7,927 bases of DNA, from the NCBI GenBank assembly GCA_023484185.1, contig JAMDBC010000169.1, positions 3,673 through 11,599 of the forward strand. Direction: 5' to 3'. Source of the DNA: Chloroflexota bacterium. Its GTDB lineage: Bacteria; Chloroflexota; Anaerolineae; Anaerolineales; Villigracilaceae. The stretch's first letter is position 1; each line of letters opens with the position of its first letter. Shown here one piece after another: positions 127 through 7,927 of this stretch. A program made the position numbers and the translations under genes. The notes under the pieces were generated by a model, which saw only the letters and a program-made list of their open reading frames with translations, was not told the origin of the DNA and ran no database searches.

Positions 127-407
127 CGGCCCGTCAATTGCGATAATGTCAGGTTTTCTTTTCGTCATTATTTTTAAACCACAGATGAATCGGGATGAAA
201 AAAATCAACCGCAAAGTGCGAAGATTTTTAAAGGCTTTCGTCAGAACATTCGCCACGAAGTCACAAAGGCACGAAGCCATAAAATTTTTACAATTGGTGC
301 CTTTGAGACTTAGTGCCTTCGTGGTAGATTACGTTGAGTTTTCGGATAGCGCTCTTAGAGCTCTTGGCACACGTGCAGTTCAAAAAAATCAACGGCATCC
401 AGAGTCA
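127..407. other. Non-coding region downstream of the operon, with degenerate repeats
   Basis: This 281-bp AT-rich stretch follows the stop of the last operon gene. Open frames crossing it on the plus strand have no ribosome-binding site and translate repeat-like, non-globular peptides, so I call no gene. Around 178-226 there is a motif of the type 'accacagatgaatcgggatg' followed by 'accgcaaagtgcgaag', then the inverted repeat at 253-324. This order resembles a degenerate intergenic repeat I recall from Anaerolineae and other environmental bacteria. A 12-bp direct repeat (aaaaaaatcaac) occurs at 198-209 and 382-393, flanking most of this material. I see no strong intrinsic terminator for the minus-strand operon. 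Confidence 0.7.
253..324. repeat. Imperfect inverted repeat, 'ccacgaag...cttcgtgg' type
   Basis: Two nested stems are visible. The outer stem is ccacgaag (253-260) with cttcgtgg (317-324); the inner stem is aaaggcac (265-272) with gtgccttt (297-304). The loop is AT-rich (about 280-292). The right arm carries about eight extra bases between stems, so the fold is asymmetric. It lies downstream of the minus-strand operon and could form a hairpin in its 3' transcript, but no T-run follows it closely in the minus direction. From memory, related 'cttcgtgcctttgtgg' elements are dispersed between genes in many environmental bacteria. Confidence 0.7.
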
Positions 408-2096
408 TTAAGGTTTTGGCGAAGTGGAGTCGATGAACAGATCGTCCCGCACCCAGACGATGACCGTCTCGGAATTTTGCGGCATTTGATGGAACGCCAC
501 CCAGCGCATCCAATCGACAACCTGGGCATCGTTCCATAATGGTGACTGCCGCCAGATAAAACTCTGTCCGCGATAGCCAGCCGCCAAACTTGGATTATCC
601 TGTCCAGTCGTGACAACGATGGGCGGCGATGCCGAGGCGTCCAGCGAACTCACAACTTCAACTTTATGCTTATGCAAAAGCCATTCCAAAGCAGGCGAGT
701 CAATTCCTGCAATGGTCACAGGTTGGGCATTGATGTTGGTTTTACTCCAATCGGATATTTGATCCACGGTCATCAGCAACAAATCAGACTCTGCCGGCGC
801 TGTACCTGCATTCCATAACTCCACCCCGGGTGCGACCCGCAGGCCGCCTGCGCTCAACATCGCGTTCAGTGAATAAATTCCCAAAGTCGCAACCAGCCCC
901 CACACTGCGCCGAGCCGAGCCGAACGAATGGACCATCCAACCGCCACCAGCAAAACGCTCATGACCAAAAGGAACAACGAACCGAACAATAACCACGCCC
1001 TCAGATTCGCCTGGTCAGAAGGCATTGCCGTTTGGTTCAGCGCCAAAAAATCCAGCCATGAAAAGGCCAAAATCAAAACGCTCAAGCCGACCACGCCCAA
1101 CACCTCGACGCGTTCCTCGCTGAAAACTTTTAAATTGCGCGCCAGCTCAAGCGCCGCCAGCGACCATAACGGGATCAACATCCACGCCAGGTCGCTTACC
1201 TGGCGCGCCGGATAGAACAGTGCCAGCAACAAGCCCACCAGCGCCCACAAACTCAAGCGCTTCAGGCGTCGGTTTTTGCTTCGCAATCCGCGTACAACCG
1301 CGATCAATCCCAATATCAGCGCCAGCGGCTGATACACGACCAGCGAGAACAACAACATTCCAAAAGAAATTCCCGACGGATTCCGCCAGCCCGCGACATA
1401 TTCGGGCAGGGACGACATCCATGCGCCCAAACCGTTCGGAGATAAGAAGAACAACGTCCCGCCCAGGATGAGCGTGCCGAGTCCGAACCACAAAGCGGAG
1501 TACCACTCGCTGCGCGCGGGACGTTGGGCGGATTCCGTCTTCGGGCCGCGTTCCCACGCTTGAAGAATCGCCCACGTCAAGATCAAACCTAACAGCCCGG
1601 CCCACAGAGCAGGCCCGGAAAGTAAGGCCAACCCGACAAAGACACCTGCCCAGCGCGCGTTCTTCTGTCGCCAGAATCCCCAGGCGAGGAATAGAAACGT
1701 GATGGCGAGGATGGAACTGCCAGCCTGACGCGAGAGGGCTACCAGCCCCGGGTCGAGTGCAAGGAAGAAGGCCAGGATCAGGCTGGGCCGGGGTTTGAGG
1801 CGGTCCCTAAAAAGTATCGGAGCAAACACCAGCGCGCTTCCGGTCAAAGCTGGGACAAGTCGCGCCAGAAAATTCGTTCCGCCACCGTAGAGAAAAAAGA
1901 AAATACTGGTCAGCAGAACGTAGGCGGGTTGCGAGCCCAGCGCGGGGCGAGTCCCTTGCGCCACTCCTAGAGCTTGCAAAGCCCATTTTGCTTCAAGGTC
2001 GGTGAGAGGCAATGTGCCAAGCCTGATAAGCCGGACGGCCAACGCCAAAACAAAGGCGAGTAGATAGAGAACGTTTTCGCGGCGGAATGATTTCAT
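408..2096 (-). CDS. GT39-like / TIGR03663-like membrane glycosyltransferase
   Basis: This 562-residue polytopic membrane protein has about a dozen hydrophobic segments between residues 8 and 415, then a soluble C-terminal region of about 145 residues. The first non-cytoplasmic loop holds an acidic motif (TDLEAKWALQAL, residues 32-43), where GT-C enzymes of family 39 have their catalytic Asp/Glu. The tail contains SPALEWLL (467-474) and ends with a DWMRW...VIVWVRDDLF pattern (528-554), which I recall from the family found beside DUF2298 proteins (TIGR03663, sometimes named Agl23). Such enzymes are thought to move sugars from polyprenyl-phosphate donors to acceptors outside the membrane; here that is inferred. 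The ATG at 2096 follows the upstream gene by 26 bp with no clear Shine-Dalgarno. It is the last operon gene, and its interior (1055-1180) is duplicated in inverse at the left window edge. The exact family assignment is moderate; the membrane glycosyltransferase character is firmer. Confidence 0.8.
   Translation of the reverse strand: MKSFRRENVLYLLAFVLALAVRLIRLGTLPLTDLEAKWALQALGVAQGTRPALGSQPAYVLLTSIFFFLYGGGTNFLARLVPALTGSALVFAPILFRDRLKPRPSLILAFFLALDPGLVALSRQAGSSILAITFLFLAWGFWRQKNARWAGVFVGLALLSGPALWAGLLGLILTWAILQAWERGPKTESAQRPARSEWYSALWFGLGTLILGGTLFFLSPNGLGAWMSSLPEYVAGWRNPSGISFGMLLFSLVVYQPLALILGLIAVVRGLRSKNRRLKRLSLWALVGLLLALFYPARQVSDLAWMLIPLWSLAALELARNLKVFSEERVEVLGVVGLSVLILAFSWLDFLALNQTAMPSDQANLRAWLLFGSLFLLVMSVLLVAVGWSIRSARLGAVWGLVATLGIYSLNAMLSAGGLRVAPGVELWNAGTAPAESDLLLMTVDQISDWSKTNINAQPVTIAGIDSPALEWLLHKHKVEVVSSLDASASPPIVVTTGQDNPSLAAGYRGQSFIWRQSPLWNDAQVVDWMRWVAFHQMPQNSETVIVWVRDDLFIDSTSPKP
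1055..1180 (-). repeat. Right arm of the 126-bp perfect inverted repeat, inside the glycosyltransferase gene
   Basis: This segment encodes about residues 306-347 of the glycosyltransferase (from the MLIPLWS stretch to LILAFSW). It is the exact reverse complement of 1-126, with 928 bp between the arms. This copy is in an intact frame with normal sequence on both sides, so it is the original and the left-edge copy is the derived or artefactual one. Confidence 0.95.
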
Positions 2097-2122: not shown

Positions 2123-4597
2123 TTACGGCACTTCATATATTGTCACATCGCCTAATTGATAAACCTGCGTAAGATGCTGTTTGAATTTATCTTCCTGCAC
2201 GTGATAAGTGGAACGTTCCAGGCCGCCGATGTAAATATAGCGGACATTGTATTGCTTGATAATATCGAGAGCGGTCTGCCAATTGGATGTGGTGTAAAGC
2301 ATTTTGACATCGTCTTCGCGCGTTGCCAGTTCTGCTCCATTGCGCCCCCACTGGGATTCGTGAAAGCGCCAGCCAAGCACAGTGGATGAGCCTGTGTACG
2401 TTGAGATCCGTGCGTAGCCGGTATAACTTCCGCCATTGGGACCCACAGCTTCAACAATCGCTCCATCCGGCGCAGACTTGAGCCAATCAATCGCCGCGGC
2501 TTCGTCCGGGTTCTCACGTTGGACGCGGGCGAAATCGTCAAGCGTCCAGCCGAATGGCGGGTTGAAATTATTTGTTTTGTTCGCAAGAGCCAGCACCGGA
2601 TAGGTCAATCCTATGAACAGCAAAAGGACGAGGCCAATGCGGAAAGCCCAATCAACAACGCCGCGCAAGTTTTGTAACAGCATCGCCACTCCAAAAGCAG
2701 CAGCGATGCTAAACAACAACCAGGCCTGATAATAAAATTTGAAAATGGTGTTCATGCGCGAACCAAATTGGTCACGTAGATAGACGAATTCAGGTGTGAG
2801 GATGAGGAGAGTGGCGAGAGTGATGAGAAGAAACACAAAGGATGAAGGATGAAGGATGAAGGATGACTGCTCACCTTCTGTTTTTCTTTCTTCCTTCATC
2901 AAAAACGCAACGGCGGGAATAAGCAACGCCAGCATCGTCAACAATCCACCGATGGTTGACAATCGGCGCAAAGACGCGGCGGCAAATAATTCTCCGATAC
3001 TGGCAACACCTTGCGATGCAAGATATTGCTGGGCAAAGACAGGATCATGCAAATTGGCCAGCCAGCCAGCCAGCCACGAGATTCCCCACAAAAGAAAAGT
3101 TAAACCGATGACGGATAGGAAAGCCAGCTTCCAGTTTGCGCTTTGCTTTTTGTTCCAAATCACATAAGCCAGATATGCAAAGATGGGAATGAAAAGCGTT
3201 CCGAACATCACCCACAGTTGCGCACCGCGCGTCGGGTTGACGAGGTTGGGCAGGATGCCGCCCGCCTGCGACGAAAATCCAAAATAAAAGGGCAGGAAAA
3301 GCAAAATGGCGGAAAAGAGAAGCGGCAATCCAAGAACGAACGCGTCTTCGAGGCGCGTCCACGACCAGCCATCTTCACGCACGCGGAATAACACATAAGC
3401 CAGAACGATCAAGACTCCCGCGGCGAGAATATCCCAGGTGTTGAGGAAAGCCAGCCCACCGAGAATCAACGCGGCAGAGAAGAAGCCGCTCTTGCTGATC
3501 TGCAAGCGGAAACCGAACAAATTGAATTCGCCGCGCCAACCGCCGAGGAATAGATTCAGCGCGACGGCAATCGCCAACAAATTGAACGGAATCGCCAGCA
3601 CATGCGGATGAAGGTCGCCGAGCAGGAAGGAGAAGAAAGGGAACTCATCGATGATCTCTATAAAATTATGTGAAAGACTATAGTCTGAAATGACGCGTGA
3701 GGCGCGCCACCACCACAAATAACGGTTGGGAATCCAGCCAAGAGGCAGGGTCGGCGCGTCGCTTAATTCTCTGATACCAAGCCATGTCCAAAAATTGGAT
3801 GGATTGGAATTCCAGAAAAAACCTTTTTGATGAAGGACTTCGAGGAAGCCTGCCAGGTTGCTAACAAGCAAAAGAAAAAGTGGAGCGAGGAATGAGAGAC
3901 CGAAGACCGAGGAAGATGAACGGTCTACAGTCTGCGGTCTACGGTCTAATAAAGCCAACAGGTTGTAAAGAATTCCATACGCGCCAATCGCGGCCAGACC
4001 AAAGATGAGCGAGGTCATTAAGTTGTGTGCGATGGTAGCCGGAACACTTGCCAGCTTGGCAAGCATGGCTGTCAGCACATAGCCAAAGTAATAATAAGAA
4101 ATAGCATAACCTGAGAGCCACGAGTCATGCGGAGGAAAAGTCGGCGAGCGCAAAATGGAATTGATGAACATCAACTCCATCGGCCTTTCCGTGCCATTCA
4201 ATTCGGGATTGCCTGCGCGAATGAAAGCAAGGAAGGCAAACGTGATCAGGAGGAAAACAAGAACCGAGAAAACATAGCGGAGATTGGATTTGAGCCAAGC
4301 AAGGAGTTCCGATTTTCGATTTTCGATTTTCGATTCTGGGAGAAAGAAGAAAGCTGAAAGGCTCAATCCCGTCAACACAAGCAGACCAAATAAGATTCCA
4401 CCAACGGTGTTTTGCGTCAATCCAAGTGAAGTGAACAGCCAGAAGATGTATCCCCAGATGAGGAGTCCCGCCACGCGCGAAAGACTGTAGCCGCGATCCG
4501 CCAGCGCGGGAAAAAGCCGATACGCCAGCGGAAAAGTCAGCCAGCCGAGCAGGGTCAGGAGAAGATACCACGAGATAAATGCAGTGATGGAATTCAC
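2123..4597 (-). CDS. DUF2298 / Chlor_Arch_YYY family membrane protein (complete copy)
   Basis: This 824-residue, strongly hydrophobic protein fits the usual 700-900 residues of single-domain family members. Visible motifs in order: ERPMELMF (137-144), TFPPHDSW (153-160), the hallmark YYYFG (168-172), DEFPFF (317-322) with GDLHPH (327-332), RMNTIFKFYYQAW (614-626), and a soluble C-terminal part with YTGSSTVLGW (734-743) and YNVRYIYIGGLER (783-795). All recur in the paralog at the right edge. Molecular function is not established; the context and the acidic ERPM/DLHxH loops suggest a GT-C-like enzyme (inference). The start is GTG at 4597, overlapping the acetyltransferase stop, with AAGGA six bases upstream; the N-terminal segment WYLLLTLLGWLTFP aligns with the paralog. 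Three loops contain translated heptanucleotide repeats (residues about 89-96, 217-233 and 571-587), and a GCCA tetranucleotide repeat lies near residues 507-513. Confidence 0.9.
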   Translation of the reverse strand: MNSITAFISWYLLLTLLGWLTFPLAYRLFPALADRGYSLSRVAGLLIWGYIFWLFTSLGLTQNTVGGILFGLLVLTGLSLSAFFFLPESKIENRKSELLAWLKSNLRYVFSVLVFLLITFAFLAFIRAGNPELNGTERPMELMFINSILRSPTFPPHDSWLSGYAISYYYFGYVLTAMLAKLASVPATIAHNLMTSLIFGLAAIGAYGILYNLLALLDRRPQTVDRSSSSVFGLSFLAPLFLLLVSNLAGFLEVLHQKGFFWNSNPSNFWTWLGIRELSDAPTLPLGWIPNRYLWWWRASRVISDYSLSHNFIEIIDEFPFFSFLLGDLHPHVLAIPFNLLAIAVALNLFLGGWRGEFNLFGFRLQISKSGFFSAALILGGLAFLNTWDILAAGVLIVLAYVLFRVREDGWSWTRLEDAFVLGLPLLFSAILLFLPFYFGFSSQAGGILPNLVNPTRGAQLWVMFGTLFIPIFAYLAYVIWNKKQSANWKLAFLSVIGLTFLLWGISWLAGWLANLHDPVFAQQYLASQGVASIGELFAAASLRRLSTIGGLLTMLALLIPAVAFLMKEERKTEGEQSSFILHPSSFVFLLITLATLLILTPEFVYLRDQFGSRMNTIFKFYYQAWLLFSIAAAFGVAMLLQNLRGVVDWAFRIGLVLLLFIGLTYPVLALANKTNNFNPPFGWTLDDFARVQRENPDEAAAIDWLKSAPDGAIVEAVGPNGGSYTGYARISTYTGSSTVLGWRFHESQWGRNGAELATREDDVKMLYTTSNWQTALDIIKQYNVRYIYIGGLERSTYHVQEDKFKQHLTQVYQLGDVTIYEVP
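2838..2900. repeat. Heptamer repeat (aaggatg)x4 with inverted partner, inside the DUF2298 gene
   Basis: Four perfect copies of aaggatg occupy 2838-2865. A short inverted partner, tccttcatc at 2892-2900, is the reverse complement of gatgaagga at 2841-2849, so the whole insert is an imperfect palindrome. On the coding strand it gives the low-complexity peptide KTEGEQSSFILHPSSF (residues 572-587). It sits between two membrane segments where the paralog has only a short loop (RPNMPDVKRF). Confidence 0.9.
3057..3076. repeat. Tetranucleotide repeat (gcca)x5 inside the DUF2298 gene
   Basis: Five perfect tandem copies of gcca (tggc on the coding strand) encode the WLAGWLA stretch at residues 507-513, near the end of a hydrophobic segment. 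The unit is not a multiple of three, so gain or loss of one copy would shift the frame and truncate the protein. The array is short and may be coincidental Trp/Leu/Ala/Gly codon use. Confidence 0.8.
3897..3948. repeat. Palindromic heptamer insert (agaccga)x2 ... (cggtcta)x4, inside the DUF2298 gene
   Basis: Two copies of agaccga (3897-3910) are followed by a 10-bp spacer and four copies of cggtcta (3921-3948), the second degenerate (cagtctg). The halves are inverted relative to each other (agaccg against cggtct). On the coding strand it reads DRRPQTVDRSSSSVFGL (residues 218-234), in the loop between the membrane segment ending YNLLALL and the one starting SFLAPLF. This is the same loop that carries an unrelated heptamer insert in the paralogous gene. 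Confidence 0.88.
4310..4335. repeat. Heptamer repeat (cgatttt)x3.7 inside the DUF2298 gene
   Basis: Three perfect copies of cgatttt (4310-4330) are followed by a partial fourth (cgatt). The coding strand gives ESKIENRKSE (residues 88-97), a charged loop between hydrophobic segments. The paralog has a different charged loop here (MRRAELREEWKLRRN) without the repeat. Confidence 0.88.
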
Positions 4598-5199
4598 GCC
4601 AAGTCCTTGACCATGCGATGATAACCGGGCGCCTTGTTTTTCTCCTGAACGGTCAATAAGATTTGATAACCGTTTCGTTCGTAAAGACGGCGGGCGCCTT
4701 CATTCTTCAAACTTACAAGCAGGGAACATTTCAGCAAATGAGCGTTGCGGGCAATCCCGTCCGCATATTCGAGCAAACGCGTGCCGATGCCGCGTCCCTG
4801 TGCAGAGGAAATAACGCCGAGGTTGCTGATGTAATATTCACCGGCCTCAGCTTCCTTTCCGCCGGGGAGGGAAATGCCTCTCCGAAGAAAATCGAAGACG
4901 CGCGGCAGACCCATCACAGAAAAAAGATGAGGCAGCGTCTGCAGGTCGAGGATCGGAAGTTTGTTTCCGGGATACGAAACTAGAAGGCCGACAGATTCAT
5001 CGTCCGCTTCGGCGACAAACGCGTTCTTAAACCCAAAACGACTGGCGTTGCGCGAGAATAATTTCATCAAACTAATTTCTGCAAAACGAGAATCATTATC
5101 AAAAAGATAATCGGCCAGACTGCCCATGGAAAGTTGAAACAACTGCGCCGCAAGAGACGCGTCCGCCGGCCGGGCAGGGCGAATATGGATCGAGTTCAT
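4594..5199 (-). CDS. GNAT family N-acetyltransferase
   Basis: This 201-residue soluble protein has a standard GNAT fold signature. The acetyl-CoA-binding motif A is ISNLGVISSAQGRGIGTRLL, with the pyrophosphate loop QGRGIG at residues 134-139. Motif B-like NEGARRLYERNGY lies at 166-178. Members transfer an acetyl group from acetyl-CoA to an amine; the substrate cannot be read from the sequence. I chose the ATG at 5199 because it overlaps the DUF952 stop as ATGA, matching the other junctions. A GTG six codons upstream (5217) is possible, but has only a G-rich stretch immediately against it. Neither start has a well-placed Shine-Dalgarno, consistent with translational coupling. An unusual N-terminal half (residues 20-110, LADYLFDND...) may set acceptor choice. 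Its position between two YYY membrane proteins hints at a shared pathway, but that is inference. Confidence 0.9.
   Translation of the reverse strand: MNSIHIRPARPADASLAAQLFQLSMGSLADYLFDNDSRFAEISLMKLFSRNASRFGFKNAFVAEADDESVGLLVSYPGNKLPILDLQTLPHLFSVMGLPRVFDFLRRGISLPGGKEAEAGEYYISNLGVISSAQGRGIGTRLLEYADGIARNAHLLKCSLLVSLKNEGARRLYERNGYQILLTVQEKNKAPGYHRMVKDLA
4604..4608 (-). promoter_or_regulatory. Ribosome-binding site deciding the GTG start of the second DUF2298 gene
   Basis: The minus strand reads AAGGA, six bases before the GTG at 4597-4595, inside the last codons of the acetyltransferase gene. With the GTGA overlap this supports a GTG start rather than a downstream ATG. Confidence 0.7.
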
Positions 5200-5561
5200 A
5201 ACGTTGGAAGAGTCCACTCCCCATCCGCGTTGGGCTCGAACTTCACAACTTTTGTGACGGCATCCAGATTGATCGGGCCATAAACATGCGGGAACAGGTC
5301 AACGGCGGGAGCTCCAGGCGGAGGCGCGCCGTCGAAAGGCGGCTCCCACTTCAAGTCGGAGGAAAGACGCGCCGGATCGATCACGAGCAGGACGAGTCCG
5401 GTTTGTCCCTTGTAAAATTTTTCGGCAACCGGCACGGCTTGCAGTCGAGTCGAGCAGTGGATAAATCCTTCGCCCGCCAGACTCGGCGCGACATATTGTC
5501 CGGTCTTTTGTGCGGAAGTCCAGGCATCGTTCGATGTGATGTGCAAAATAATTTCGTTCAT
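5196..5561 (-). CDS. DUF952 domain protein
   Basis: This is a 121-residue single-domain soluble protein. The family signature is visible as GEGFIHCST (residues 30-38) and FPHVYGPI (90-97), with LVLLVID (56-62) between them; the length matches the family. The biochemical role is not established. From memory the fold has been compared with ADP-ribosyltransferase-like folds, which I cannot confirm here. The frame stays open 17 codons upstream, but the ATG at 5561 is clearly preferred: it forms an ATGA overlap with the upstream DUF2298 stop, has AGGTGA four bases upstream, and begins MNEIILHIT, the family's usual N-terminus. The gene overlaps the next (GNAT) by another ATGA, so it is probably translated in step with both neighbours. 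No membrane segment or signal peptide is seen. Confidence 0.9.
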   Translation of the reverse strand: MNEIILHITSNDAWTSAQKTGQYVAPSLAGEGFIHCSTRLQAVPVAEKFYKGQTGLVLLVIDPARLSSDLKWEPPFDGAPPPGAPAVDLFPHVYGPINLDAVTKVVKFEPNADGEWTLPTL

Positions 5562-7927
5562 GGATTCACCTGATAGATGACTGTGTCGCCGTCGCGATAG
5601 GCAGAGTTCCACAGTTGCCCGTTGTATTGTTCGAATTTATTAATGCCGGGGCCAGGATATTCAAGCCGTTCCAACTGCCCAACGATAATATATTTAACAT
5701 TGTACTTCTTGAGAAAATCACGCGCAGCCTGCGGATCTTCCGTGGTGTAGAAGGATGTGATTTCGGCGATTCTTTCCTCGACCAGTTGCGGCGTCAGCGT
5801 GCGCTGTTGACGTTGATGCCAGCTCCAGCCGACCACGCCGGGCAAGCCGGTATAAATCGTGAAGCGCGTGCCCCATTTATATTCGGTGGTGTTGGCCTCG
5901 ACAATCACAGGCGAACCTTGAACGTTATCCTGCATCCAGCGGATAGCGCGATAGTCGTGACTCAAATCCATCGTTCCGCCGAAATCGGCATATTGGGCGT
6001 ATTGCATATAAGTGATGCTATCGAGTGTGAACGGCACACCCGGAGCCATGCGGTCGGCAACTTTATCAGCCGCCGATGAGATCGTGGTCAGCGCCGCGCC
6101 CGCCAGTACAAATGTCACACCGATCTGGAAGAAGTTACGCCAACCCGGCAGCCATTTGCGGACTTCGGGCAGAACCCACGCGAAAGCTGCCGCGGCGGAA
6201 ACGGATAACAATGCCCAGGCTTGAAGATAAAACTTGAAGACCGTGTTCATGCGTCCGATGTCGCCGCGCACAACAACCAACTCGACCACGATGGTGATGA
6301 CCATGGCAGTGCCGATCAGGAAAAGAATGAAGCGTTTAACGTCTGGCATATTCGGGCGCAGGATAAGCAGCCCGGCCCAGACCGCGATTGGCAACGCGAC
6401 CCACCCGATCTCCACGCCGCGATAAACAAAATAAACCAGAGACGCCAGCATAAATGCGATGCCAGCCTCGATCAAAATTTGATATGGGCGCAACTTATTC
6501 AGGGATGAAACCGGGGTGTTCGCCATCCATTCGTGTGTCTCCCACGCCATCCATGCCACGATGATGAACAGGAACACGCCCCAGTGCGTGAGATAAGACC
6601 AGATCGGCGTCTGAGAAGCCGTCCATGGATCGAGCGCACTATAAGGTTGATAATATGAAGCGCGATAAGGTTCGTACAGCACAAAGGAAAGCAAGGTCAA
6701 TAAAATAATCGAACCAAGAATCAATCCCAATTTTTTGACAGTATCGGGAACATTAGTCGACCACTTCCACGCCACGGTTCCGTAACGCCAAAGCGAATAA
6801 GCAAGCGCGGCAAAACCGATCGGGAGATAAGTGTAAATATCCGAGAGGTTGGTCGGATACAACGCGCCGATAATCAACCCGCCAATCAGAAGCGAAAGCC
6901 ACGAAGTGCGACGGCCTTTGATAATCGAAAGCGCCCAGGCCAGCGCCATCAAAGCCAGCGGCATCGCCATCATGTGCGCATGCAGATCGCTGTACACAAA
7001 AGTGAAGAACGGGAATTCGGTGATCTCGTTGCCGGGCCCGGGCGGAATAACCCGGCTCGGATTCCAGTACCAGTCGCCTCGTCCGTAAGGAAGCGCCTGC
7101 CCCGCGATGGCTTTGAATAATCCTTCAGATGCCCAGATAAAACGTTGCACAAGATTCGCATTGTCGATGATGCCGCCCGGCGCGGCCATGCGCTCGAAGC
7201 CCTGATACAACATCCGCAGCGTGCCGAGATTGCCAAGCGCCACCATCAACAAAGCCGCAAGCAAGCCGGCAATCAGTGGGAGGTTGAACGTTGAAGGTTC
7301 AGAACTTTCAACATTTGACCTTGAACCTTCAACCAGGTTCCAACCGATCGAGAACGCACACAAAGCCGTCGTTGCAAACAGAGTCGGCAAAATAAAATTG
7401 TATGCAATGGTCGGCACAATGCCAAGCAGCTTGACCGGCATCGCCACCAGCACGAAGCCGTAATAATAATAGTTGATATATCCGCCCGCGAACCACGGAT
7501 CATACGGCGGGAAAGTCGTGCTCTTCAACACGGCGTTGAAATATGAAAAGTCCATCGGACGTTCGCCGCCCTTGGCCGGATGCCACAGGTCAGGATTGCC
7601 GATGCGGATGAGCAGGTCGAAGAGGAAGAATGCGAGGAAGACTCCCTCGACCATCAGGAAATAATTTCGACGCAACTTCCATTCTTCGCGCAGCTCAGCG
7701 CGGCGCATCCAACCCAGACCCAAACCGGTCGCCGCTAAAACAGCAAACACCACGCTGACAGTTAATCGTGTGTTCGGCACGCCGACAGATCCACTCAGCC
7801 ACGCGAGATAACCGAAGATCACAAGTCCCAATGCGCGTGAAAGCGGATAGCCTTTGTCTCCCAAACCGGGGAATGCCATGCGGACGATCGGATACGTGAC
7901 CAGCCCGAGCACAAAGATGAACAGATA
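5558..7927 (-). CDS. DUF2298 / Chlor_Arch_YYY family membrane protein (5' end cut by window edge)
   Basis: At least 789 residues are visible. The frame is still open at the right edge: upstream of the GTG at 7912 the codons read Y-L-F-I-F, and YLFIF-VLGLVTYP aligns with YLLLTLLGWLTFP near the paralog's N-terminus. The GTG is therefore internal, and the true start should lie about ten codons beyond the window. Motifs, numbered from that GTG: GERPMDF (116-122), TFPPYDPW (133-140), YYYYG (148-152), EFPFF (299-303) with SDLHAH (308-313), RMNTVFKFYLQAW (554-566), YTGLPGVVGW (687-696) and YNVKYIIVGQLER (737-749). The C-terminal part looks soluble. Function is unknown; glycosyl transfer at the membrane is inferred from the GT39-like neighbour. 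A heptamer-derived loop (residues about 196-210) is the main oddity. The stop overlaps the DUF952 start. Confidence 0.9.
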   Translation of the reverse strand, partial: YLFIFVLGLVTYPIVRMAFPGLGDKGYPLSRALGLVIFGYLAWLSGSVGVPNTRLTVSVVFAVLAATGLGLGWMRRAELREEWKLRRNYFLMVEGVFLAFFLFDLLIRIGNPDLWHPAKGGERPMDFSYFNAVLKSTTFPPYDPWFAGGYINYYYYGFVLVAMPVKLLGIVPTIAYNFILPTLFATTALCAFSIGWNLVEGSRSNVESSEPSTFNLPLIAGLLAALLMVALGNLGTLRMLYQGFERMAAPGGIIDNANLVQRFIWASEGLFKAIAGQALPYGRGDWYWNPSRVIPPGPGNEITEFPFFTFVYSDLHAHMMAMPLALMALAWALSIIKGRRTSWLSLLIGGLIIGALYPTNLSDIYTYLPIGFAALAYSLWRYGTVAWKWSTNVPDTVKKLGLILGSIILLTLLSFVLYEPYRASYYQPYSALDPWTASQTPIWSYLTHWGVFLFIIVAWMAWETHEWMANTPVSSLNKLRPYQILIEAGIAFMLASLVYFVYRGVEIGWVALPIAVWAGLLILRPNMPDVKRFILFLIGTAMVITIVVELVVVRGDIGRMNTVFKFYLQAWALLSVSAAAAFAWVLPEVRKWLPGWRNFFQIGVTFVLAGAALTTISSAADKVADRMAPGVPFTLDSITYMQYAQYADFGGTMDLSHDYRAIRWMQDNVQGSPVIVEANTTEYKWGTRFTIYTGLPGVVGWSWHQRQQRTLTPQLVEERIAEITSFYTTEDPQAARDFLKKYNVKYIIVGQLERLEYPGPGINKFEQYNGQLWNSAYRDGDTVIYQVNP
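5566..5571 (-). promoter_or_regulatory. Ribosome-binding site of the DUF952 gene
   Basis: The minus strand reads AGGTGA four bases before the ATG at 5561, within the final codons of the upstream DUF2298 gene. It favours this start over the in-frame upstream candidate at 5612. Confidence 0.7.
7282..7334. repeat. Palindromic heptamer insert of the ggttgaa type, inside the partial DUF2298 gene
   Basis: The left half reads ggttgaa-cgttgaa-ggttcag (7282-7302). The right half, reverse-complemented, reads ggttgaa-ggttcaa-ggtcaaa-tgttgaa, giving an imperfect palindrome of heptamers with ggttgaa/ttcaacc at its ends (7282-7288 and 7328-7334). The coding strand gives EGSRSNVESSEPSTFNL, in the loop between the membrane segment ending SIGWNLV and the one beginning PLIAGLL. 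It matches the position, not the sequence, of the cggtcta insert in the paralog. Confidence 0.85.

Follow-up and report, generated by a model that had tools for sequence, protein, structure and literature searches.

Heptameric repeats of changing unit in orthologous coding loops of Chloroflexota DUF2298 genes

Introduction

Heptamers are the commonest class of longer simple repeats in bacteria, and the passages of PMC4679880 that review them, citing Mrazek 2007, relate a proposal that seven nucleotides is the stretch contacted by the polymerase; according to the same passages, the likeliest repeat units in coding DNA are multiples of three. The present analysis concerns heptamer arrays that lie in frame within two tandem DUF2298 membrane-protein genes of a Chloroflexota genome, on a stretch of 7,927 nucleotides (contig JAMDBC010000169.1, assembly GCA_023484185.1), here called the window, and at the corresponding loops of orthologous genes. 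The arrays are probably heptameric simple sequence repeats of the known bacterial kind, with seven-base slippage and template switching between nearby copies as the source of growth and with selection as the filter inside genes.

Related repeats include the G-rich heptamers of Xanthomonas and Nostoc and the GGGAATC inverted repeats of Xanthomonas presented in the pertinent part of PMC4692102. For Chloroflexi, the figures for eight genera in PMC4060949 amount to a weak published heptamer excess (median +1, where the scale runs from -4 to +4, for at least three heptamers), and a section of PMC6749651 mentions heptamer-derived satellites and places Chloroflexus aurantiacus among satellite-rich genomes. 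The arrays described here resemble the heptameric long simple sequence repeats (LSSR) and the cyanobacterial short tandemly repeated repetitive sequences (STRR), as characterized in the relevant sections of PMC4679880 and PMC4692102, in having a seven-base unit, tandem arrangement, dispersed and mostly intergenic placement, patchy distribution by lineage, and mixed units. They differ from the LSSR and STRR of those sections in their many unrelated units, in the in-frame copies present in orthologous loops, and in the switching of unit at one site. The genic tandem repeats of Borg elements, in the account given in the corresponding part of PMC9879509, similarly evolve fast and give disordered segments, frequently in proteins that are membrane-bound or extracellular, but their units are all divisible by three, whereas the unit here is seven. 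A further parallel is the template switching that homogenises inverted-repeat arms in yeast genes, where, in the portion of PMC8604942 devoted to it, copying makes arms alike and leaves clustered protein changes; hairpin template switching is likewise a subject of part of PMC8794818. For heptamer arrays such copying is a proposal, and the register test of paired changes described below is negative.

Among the matches listed in a literature search that left subscription journals mostly outside, no publication was found that deals with heptamer arrays within Chloroflexota genes or with a change of unit between orthologous loops; nor was one found, among the same matches, on genome-specific heptamer unit sets. 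Heptameric repeats themselves are known; what appears to be new, and calls for explanation, is that in-frame copies change their unit between orthologous loops and that genomes have unit sets of their own. The loops bear on the preference of bacterial simple repeats for a unit of seven, as their conserved flanks and single reading frame make it possible to measure the step size, the copying and how units spread; they record the growth, change and protein tolerance of such repeats in this uncultured Chloroflexota group.

Heptamer arrays in two paralogous DUF2298 genes

The two DUF2298 genes of the window lie in tandem on the minus strand, each with a PF10060 match above the cutoff of 27.8 bits. 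The complete gene (gene 1; 2123..4597, 824 amino acids (aa), 348.6 bits) hosts three array-bearing loops, termed A, B and C. The partial paralog (gene 2; 5558..7927, 385.4 bits over 5558-7912) hosts loop B2; its 789 aa are the C-terminal part within the window, past the end of which the gene runs. The two proteins are 32% identical along their length (E 1e-66), and loops B and B2 coincide in the alignment, so the site is homologous, as a sequence-only reading of the window had proposed.

That reading had described unrelated palindromic heptamers at this site in the two paralogs, and for loop B the description is fully borne out. The AGACCGA and CGGTCTA heptamers (3897..3948, minus strand) encode the peptide DRRPQTVDRSSSSVFG from residue 217, and AGACCGAAGACCGA (3897-3910) and CGGTCTACGGTCTA (3935-3948) are exact repeats, mutually inverted. 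The best lag-7 match of 12/14 and the inverted-repeat score of 10 (arms 3897-3909 and 3935-3947) are each reached by 0 of 1000 shuffles. In loop B2 (7282..7334, minus strand; imperfect GGTTGAA heptamers, peptide VEGSRSNVESSEPSTFN) the GGTTGAA/TTCAACC palindrome stands, with a perfect 12-bp inverted repeat at 7290-7301 and 7322-7333 (stem score 12, reached by 1/1000 shuffles); its period-7 signal is present but weaker than that of loop B, with a lag-7 match of 11/14 (1/1000 shuffles) and no entry in the Tandem Repeats Finder list. Both loops lie in open frame, in agreement with the statement that the palindromes are translated without a frame break.

Two further in-frame arrays of the complete gene had been overlooked. 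Loop A (4310..4335, minus strand) consists of 3.7 copies of CGATTTT, or AAAATCG on the coding strand, at 100% match, with a lag-7 match of 14/14 (0/1000 shuffles), and encodes SKIENRKS at residues 88-95; no inverted partner of its array was found in the stem scoring. Loop C (2838..2900, minus strand; peptide MKEERKTEGEQSSFILHPSS from residue 566) joins 4.1 copies of AAGGATG at 2838-2866, with a lag-7 match of 14/14 (0/1000 shuffles), to an imperfect inverted arm at 2888-2900 (stem score 10, reached by 17/1000 shuffles). These two arrays and the segment 3920-3948 of loop B are the period-7 arrays reported by Tandem Repeats Finder in the window, and none of the 370 other 65-nt tiles of the window reaches a lag-7 match of at least 12 or a stem score of at least 10. 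The heptamer arrays are thus real and extend more widely than the sequence-only reading had described. Loops A, B and C fall in low-confidence segments of the AlphaFold2 model of the complete protein (predicted local distance difference test 77, predicted template modeling score 0.85), overlapping three of its ten such segments, and the remaining seven carry no recurrent array.

Period seven in orthologous genes

Genome contigs were scanned with an alignment of 37 homologs, and the best 80 of 537 confirmed places, all Chloroflexota-titled, were used. Together with the window these loci (numbered L) comprise 1.48 Mb and supply 81 open reading frames (ORFs) of the complete-gene type and 67 of the partial-paralog type, of which 60 span 1620-1856 aa measured stop to stop. 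ORFs were defined by length, without a gene finder, and those of fewer than 400 aa stop to stop were left out of the ortholog counts. Regions with fewer than eight aligned residues were also left out (leaving 79 of 81 at site A), as was one loop B region containing N from the stem, substitution and pairing counts.

Imperfect arrays in gene 1 orthologs have a lag of 7 in 110 cases and of 14 in 65, compared with 0-7 at each of the other lags from 4 to 16; in gene 2 the corresponding counts are 86, 52 and 0-20. At lags 6, 9 and 12, which are frame-neutral, gene 1 has hardly any arrays (7, 5 and 6), indicating that the period is a property of the DNA and not of the protein. Among exact tandem arrays, the 1.48 Mb contain 99 of period 7, 41 of period 14, 11 of period 8 and 7 of period 15, with at most five of each other period from 3 to 13, whereas a Markov control with a 12-match bar yields one array only, of period 14. 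Head-to-tail seven-base units are therefore far above chance, as in heptameric simple sequence repeats (99 against 0-11 across periods 3-13).

In gene 1 the arrays are nearly confined to the three loops, being present at A in 26, at B in 35 and at C in 29 of the 81 genes, with at least one array in 45 loci. In gene 2, arrays occupy loop B2 in 16 of 67 orthologs, and 28/67 have arrays somewhere before the position of the window's end, a count in which positions were lumped together in the mapping. Alleles with no scored array are frequent (A 53/79, B 46/81, C 52/81, B2 51/67). The sequence-only reading had held that orthologs sharing one loop sequence, with no period-7 signal in the DNA and no insert-free alleles, would speak for normal divergence; instead the period-7 signal is present and array-free alleles are common.

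Unit switching and probable copying at orthologous loops

The heptamer unit at each loop varies among species (AATCGTC, AATTACC, CACGCAT, AGACCGT and CTTCATC, among others), and it changes gradually along single arrays at site B of L060 and L064 and at site C of L024. The gene 2 orthologs of L001 and L002 are 92% identical and their B2 loops are both 81 nt long, yet the units differ. At site C of the same two loci, where the genes are 90% identical, L002 is longer by 63 nt, corresponding to nine heptamers, and has a CCTCCAT array that is absent in L001. The close pairs L009/L012 and L015/L038 have ordinary array-free loops in common. Among equal-length alleles at the four sites, double substitutions seven bases apart are the identical change in 21-28% of cases, compared with 6-13% at lags 3-6 and 8-13, a signal that is also expected from two different arrays at one site whatever their origin.

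Length behaves differently from site to site. Array-bearing loops are longer at A (p=0.039), B (p=0.00055) and C (p=0.0077), which shows that net growth occurs at these sites, whereas at B2 the median is 28 aa for loops with an array and 29 aa for those lacking one (p=0.91). Copy-number change of the slippage type is suggested at site A, where, of 95 length differences other than zero, 58 come in steps of seven residues (three heptamers each), and by the nine-heptamer difference at site C, both in comparisons of orthologs.

Loops with KIENRKS-, STINHQP-, SSFILHP- and STFNLQP-like peptides recur in database homologs (among the matches listed, 70 of 120 aligned). Given that (AAAATCG) translates to KIENRKS, (TCATCCT) to SSFILHP and (TTCAACC) to STFNLQP, these database loops are probably also of heptamer origin, judging from their peptides. 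In these bacteria such loops will be a source of error in homology searches and annotation.

As a separate observation, very long heptamer arrays in which the unit shifts along the array are present at L182 10098-10201 and L216 3117-3245.

Coding filter

Seven is not a multiple of three, so a stop-free heptamer array encodes one cyclic heptapeptide in all three frames, and non-triplet repeats can in this way supply protein sequence. Among coding units, a cyclic stop occurs in 35/190 read in the sense direction and in 81/190 read antisense, indicating a filter against stops. Within the window, the copy that would carry an in-frame stop reads CAG instead of TAG at loop B and TCA instead of TGA at loop B2.

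Inverted arms

At B2, stems scoring at least 9 are present in 22/67 orthologs, compared with 89/1319 chimeras having halves from different species and 5/335 codon shuffles, and stems scoring at least 14 in 7/67, 5/1319 and 0/335, respectively; the arms are thus paired within species. The effect in gene 1 is small: stems scoring at least 10 are found in 2/79, 4/80 and 3/81 orthologs at A, B and C, with 0/1564, 18/1577 and 12/1605 in chimeras. A reverse-complement copy of an array's own unit lies within 120 bp in 15/156 arrays and in 0/156 when another array's flanks are used; for direct copies, the counts are 23 of 156 and 6. The match between arms comes from their common unit, and the complementarity returns with each shift of seven registers. 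In the pair L021/L011, a change of T to C throughout one arm accompanies A to G in the other, a single example.

Inverted partners within sampled genomes (numbered G) are in clear excess in G152, with 7/16 arrays against one in the same-genome control, and in G018, with 3/6 against none. An inverted layout as a genome-wide rule was rejected, a clear excess being present in just two of six sampled genomes.

Distribution across genomes

The heptamers are dispersed in many copies beyond the DUF2298 loci. Of the 152 genomes of the family of G001, 148 have a match to gene 1. The GGATGAA doublet GGATGAAGGATGAA is found in 108 of the 152 genomes of the family of G001, at up to 136 places per genome (reversed control, 9 places in total), and the GGTTGAA doublet GGTTGAAGGTTGAA in 85 of the 152, at up to 91 places (control, 7). 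In a draw of 400 genomes across the phylum, GGATGAAGGATGAA is present in 50; 24 genomes of the draw overlap the 152 (19 of them positive), leaving 31/376. The reversed control in this draw occurs at about 145 places, of which 107 are in G512 and 23 in G516, which suggests that these two genomes use the reversed word as a local unit in its own right.

Individual genomes favour different units, the counts of GGATGAA and GGTTGAA doublets being 136 and 2 in G152, 31 and 91 in G151, and 81 and 8 in G116, and many unrelated units occur within a single genome. An identical unit is present at different sites of one genome in 15/155 site pairs, compared with permutation means of 1.6% when free and 2.8% within eight bins of GC content; none of 400 permutations reaches the observed value. 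One site class in this comparison pools the gene 2 arrays, irrespective of position, up to the point corresponding to the end of the window.

In the 80 loci and the window, DUF2298 ORFs have an array density of 213.7 per Mb (113 arrays), intergenic DNA one of 154.7 (11 arrays) and other ORFs one of 36.0 (32 arrays); most arrays of these loci, 113/156, are coding. Part of the other-ORF arrays sits in neighboring genes that have recurrent sites of their own. Across six sampled genomes, only 31 of 87 arrays lie inside called ORFs even though these cover 81-91% of the sequence, and the arrays are therefore mainly non-coding. The sequence-only reading had raised a surface region diversified by selection as one possible origin; the density between genes, based on only 11 arrays, leaves it unsupported and indicates that protein-level selection is not needed to make arrays.

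Origin of the arrays

Growth by seven-base slippage with local template switching, followed by selection in genes, is the explanation that these observations favour. A replication or repair process stepping seven bases would create and extend direct repeats, with enzymes presumably acting behind this step. Neighboring units would serve as the copy source, which would keep units alike and move variants along the array, and occasional copying from the complementary strand would yield inverted partners. Most other genic positions would be intolerant, leaving genic arrays to persist in flexible inter-helix loops, where purifying selection would retain copies in frame and without in-frame stops; the arrays themselves would presumably have no selected protein or RNA function. 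The sequence-only reading had proposed independent insertion or expansion at one tolerated loop. Its expansion half is upheld by the lag spectrum and by the variation of unit and array presence among close orthologs, and its mobile-insertion half is not.

Several results weigh against growth by slippage and template switching. The orthologs are not independent, and the fractions over pairs given above are accordingly tendencies that carry no p-value. At sites B, C and B2, loop lengths do not differ in steps of seven residues. Compensatory pairing at a fixed register, scored site by site, was not seen (301/1147, or 0.26, against 0.20-0.28 in slid registers). The 22/119 strong stems with 7-periodic arms compare with 15/119 that meet the same bar at one of five other lags. 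Inverted partners in four other sampled genomes show no clear excess (8/65 against a control of 7). Lags besides 7 are prominent in some genomes, with 18 arrays at lag 9 against 33 at lag 7 in G183, 8 at lag 8 against 5 in G512, and 7 at lag 15 against 6 in G018; genomes such as G183 and G512 may have another step size. Finally, unit sharing within genomes exceeds what local slippage predicts and is the feature that plain local slippage explains least; a mutational bias finer than GC content or the descent of old arrays would be modest answers to it, and a copying activity the bold one.

The bold answer supposes a trans-acting copying activity that advances seven nucleotides at a time and takes other arrays of the same genome as its template. 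Such an activity would carry the heptamer words in use in a genome from one locus to another far away and would rewrite tolerant coding loops. The sharing of identical units between sites, the preference of genomes for different units, and the L001/L002 B2 loops of equal length and different unit all agree with it. Against this, the sharing is open to the modest answers just named, no enzyme or template was found, and the reverse transcriptase family PF00078, present in 13/20 heptamer-rich and 8/20 heptamer-poor genomes, is not decisive. A trans-acting activity is accordingly considered unlikely. Should this improbable account nevertheless be true, orthologous and paralogous loops of conserved length would acquire unrelated heptamer arrays with inverted arms by templated rewriting, which would be neither transposition nor ordinary local slippage.

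Movement by a transposase of a small mobile palindromic element that inserts into loops, of the repetitive extragenic palindrome type associated with tyrosine transposases (REP/RAYT), the miniature inverted-repeat transposable element (MITE) type or the Rickettsia palindromic element type, would account for inverted arms, genome-wide dispersal, and the greater length of array-bearing loops at A, B and C. Rickettsia palindromic elements are inverted repeats translated in frame and form one homologous element family. The loops described here share with them the in-frame translation of inverted repeats and differ in having seven-base arrays of changing unit in place of one family. Coding palindromes of Nematomorpha mitochondria are likewise translated in frame and are, in the part of PMC6649704 that describes them, long single palindromes without such arrays. 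The Y1_Tnp family matches at 75 bits or more in 16/20 heptamer-rich genomes and in 7/20 heptamer-poor genomes, and a band of 75-91 bits, chosen post hoc, includes 16 rich and 4 poor genomes; this contrast is uncorrected for kinship, and its classes are set by two heptamers only, so that a poor genome may carry other units. Around 20 Y1 genes, taken from the family search (the ORF motif recognised 1/20) and with 4/20 stretches shortened by contig ends, nine arrays occur in 82,206 bases, a density of 109.5 per Mb; the background stretches have 120.9 per Mb. A Y1 transposase-moved element was therefore rejected after examination of family presence and neighborhood, there being no local array enrichment. 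Unlike REP/RAYT systems, the genomes have no single palindrome family and no clustering at the Y1 transposase gene; units are unrelated between arrays and many per genome, and no constant element was seen. B2 loops are equally long with and without arrays, on which ground insertion as a general account was also rejected. A mobile element is for these reasons very unlikely.

Only a slight chance is left to the possibility that the coding region holds an RNA or DNA hairpin under selection, with a regulatory or structural role and a shape that is conserved as its sequence drifts. The excess of B2 stems over chimeras is in its favour, as is a link between the base of the first arm (T/C) and the codon of the second (N/D), which holds in 11 of the 13 orthologs that could be scored among the 67 (p=0.03) and was sought after seeing one pair. 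However, 45/67 orthologs lack a B2 stem scoring at least 9, the compensatory test is negative, and stem mismatches at the four sites (8 of sense G-U type, 21 of antisense type, 25 other) are not of the sense G-U type, so that a selected RNA hairpin, finding no support in mismatch types or the register test, was rejected.

Ordinary divergence, with protein-level constraint acting on a hydrophilic loop of low complexity, fits the partly retained B2 residue pattern (VE..RSKVED..STF[ND]LxL in several orthologs) and the array-free loops common to L009/L012 and L015/L038, but is scarcely credible, as protein constraint cannot produce a seven-nucleotide period, and neither the near-empty frame-neutral lags of gene 1 nor the single period-14 array of the Markov control accords with it.

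Other features of the window and loci

The AlphaFold2 model of the complete protein gives weak Foldseek matches to GT-C glycosyltransferases. Three have E values of 0.001 or less, all to DPY19 with template modeling (TM) scores of 0.33-0.36, and the best is to 7zlg (E 5.6e-5, TM 0.35). These model-based matches weakly suggest that the DUF2298 fold may be related to that of GT-C glycosyltransferases.

Other genes of the loci also bear heptamers. In L004, L019, L024, L029, L041, L050, L060 and L064, heptamer arrays lie around residue 186-220 of an ORF of 560-591 aa that follows gene 1 and is possibly orthologous to window 408-2096. Putative orthologous ORFs of 263-270 aa (L025 770-1570, L030 750-1562, L035 899-1690, L050 669-1460 and L068 169-963) have heptamer-derived peptides right after the start, followed by KDFLFLxL, and form another recurrent coding site.

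Between the two DUF2298 paralogs of the window lie a GNAT acetyltransferase gene (4594-5217) and a DUF952 gene (5196-5612), the ORFs of which overlap. At the opposite end, positions 1-129 and 1052-1180 form a 129-nt inverted duplicate, 99% complementary and with a spacing of 922 nt, in which 1-129 repeats part of the gene at 408-2096; this is possibly a chimera from assembly or amplification. An intergenic inverted repeat of octamer-like CACGAAG/CACAAAGG units, 86% complementary, pairs window 254-275 with 294-315, and its unit length suggests an eight-base cousin of the heptamer arrays, comparable with the minor lag-8 peak.

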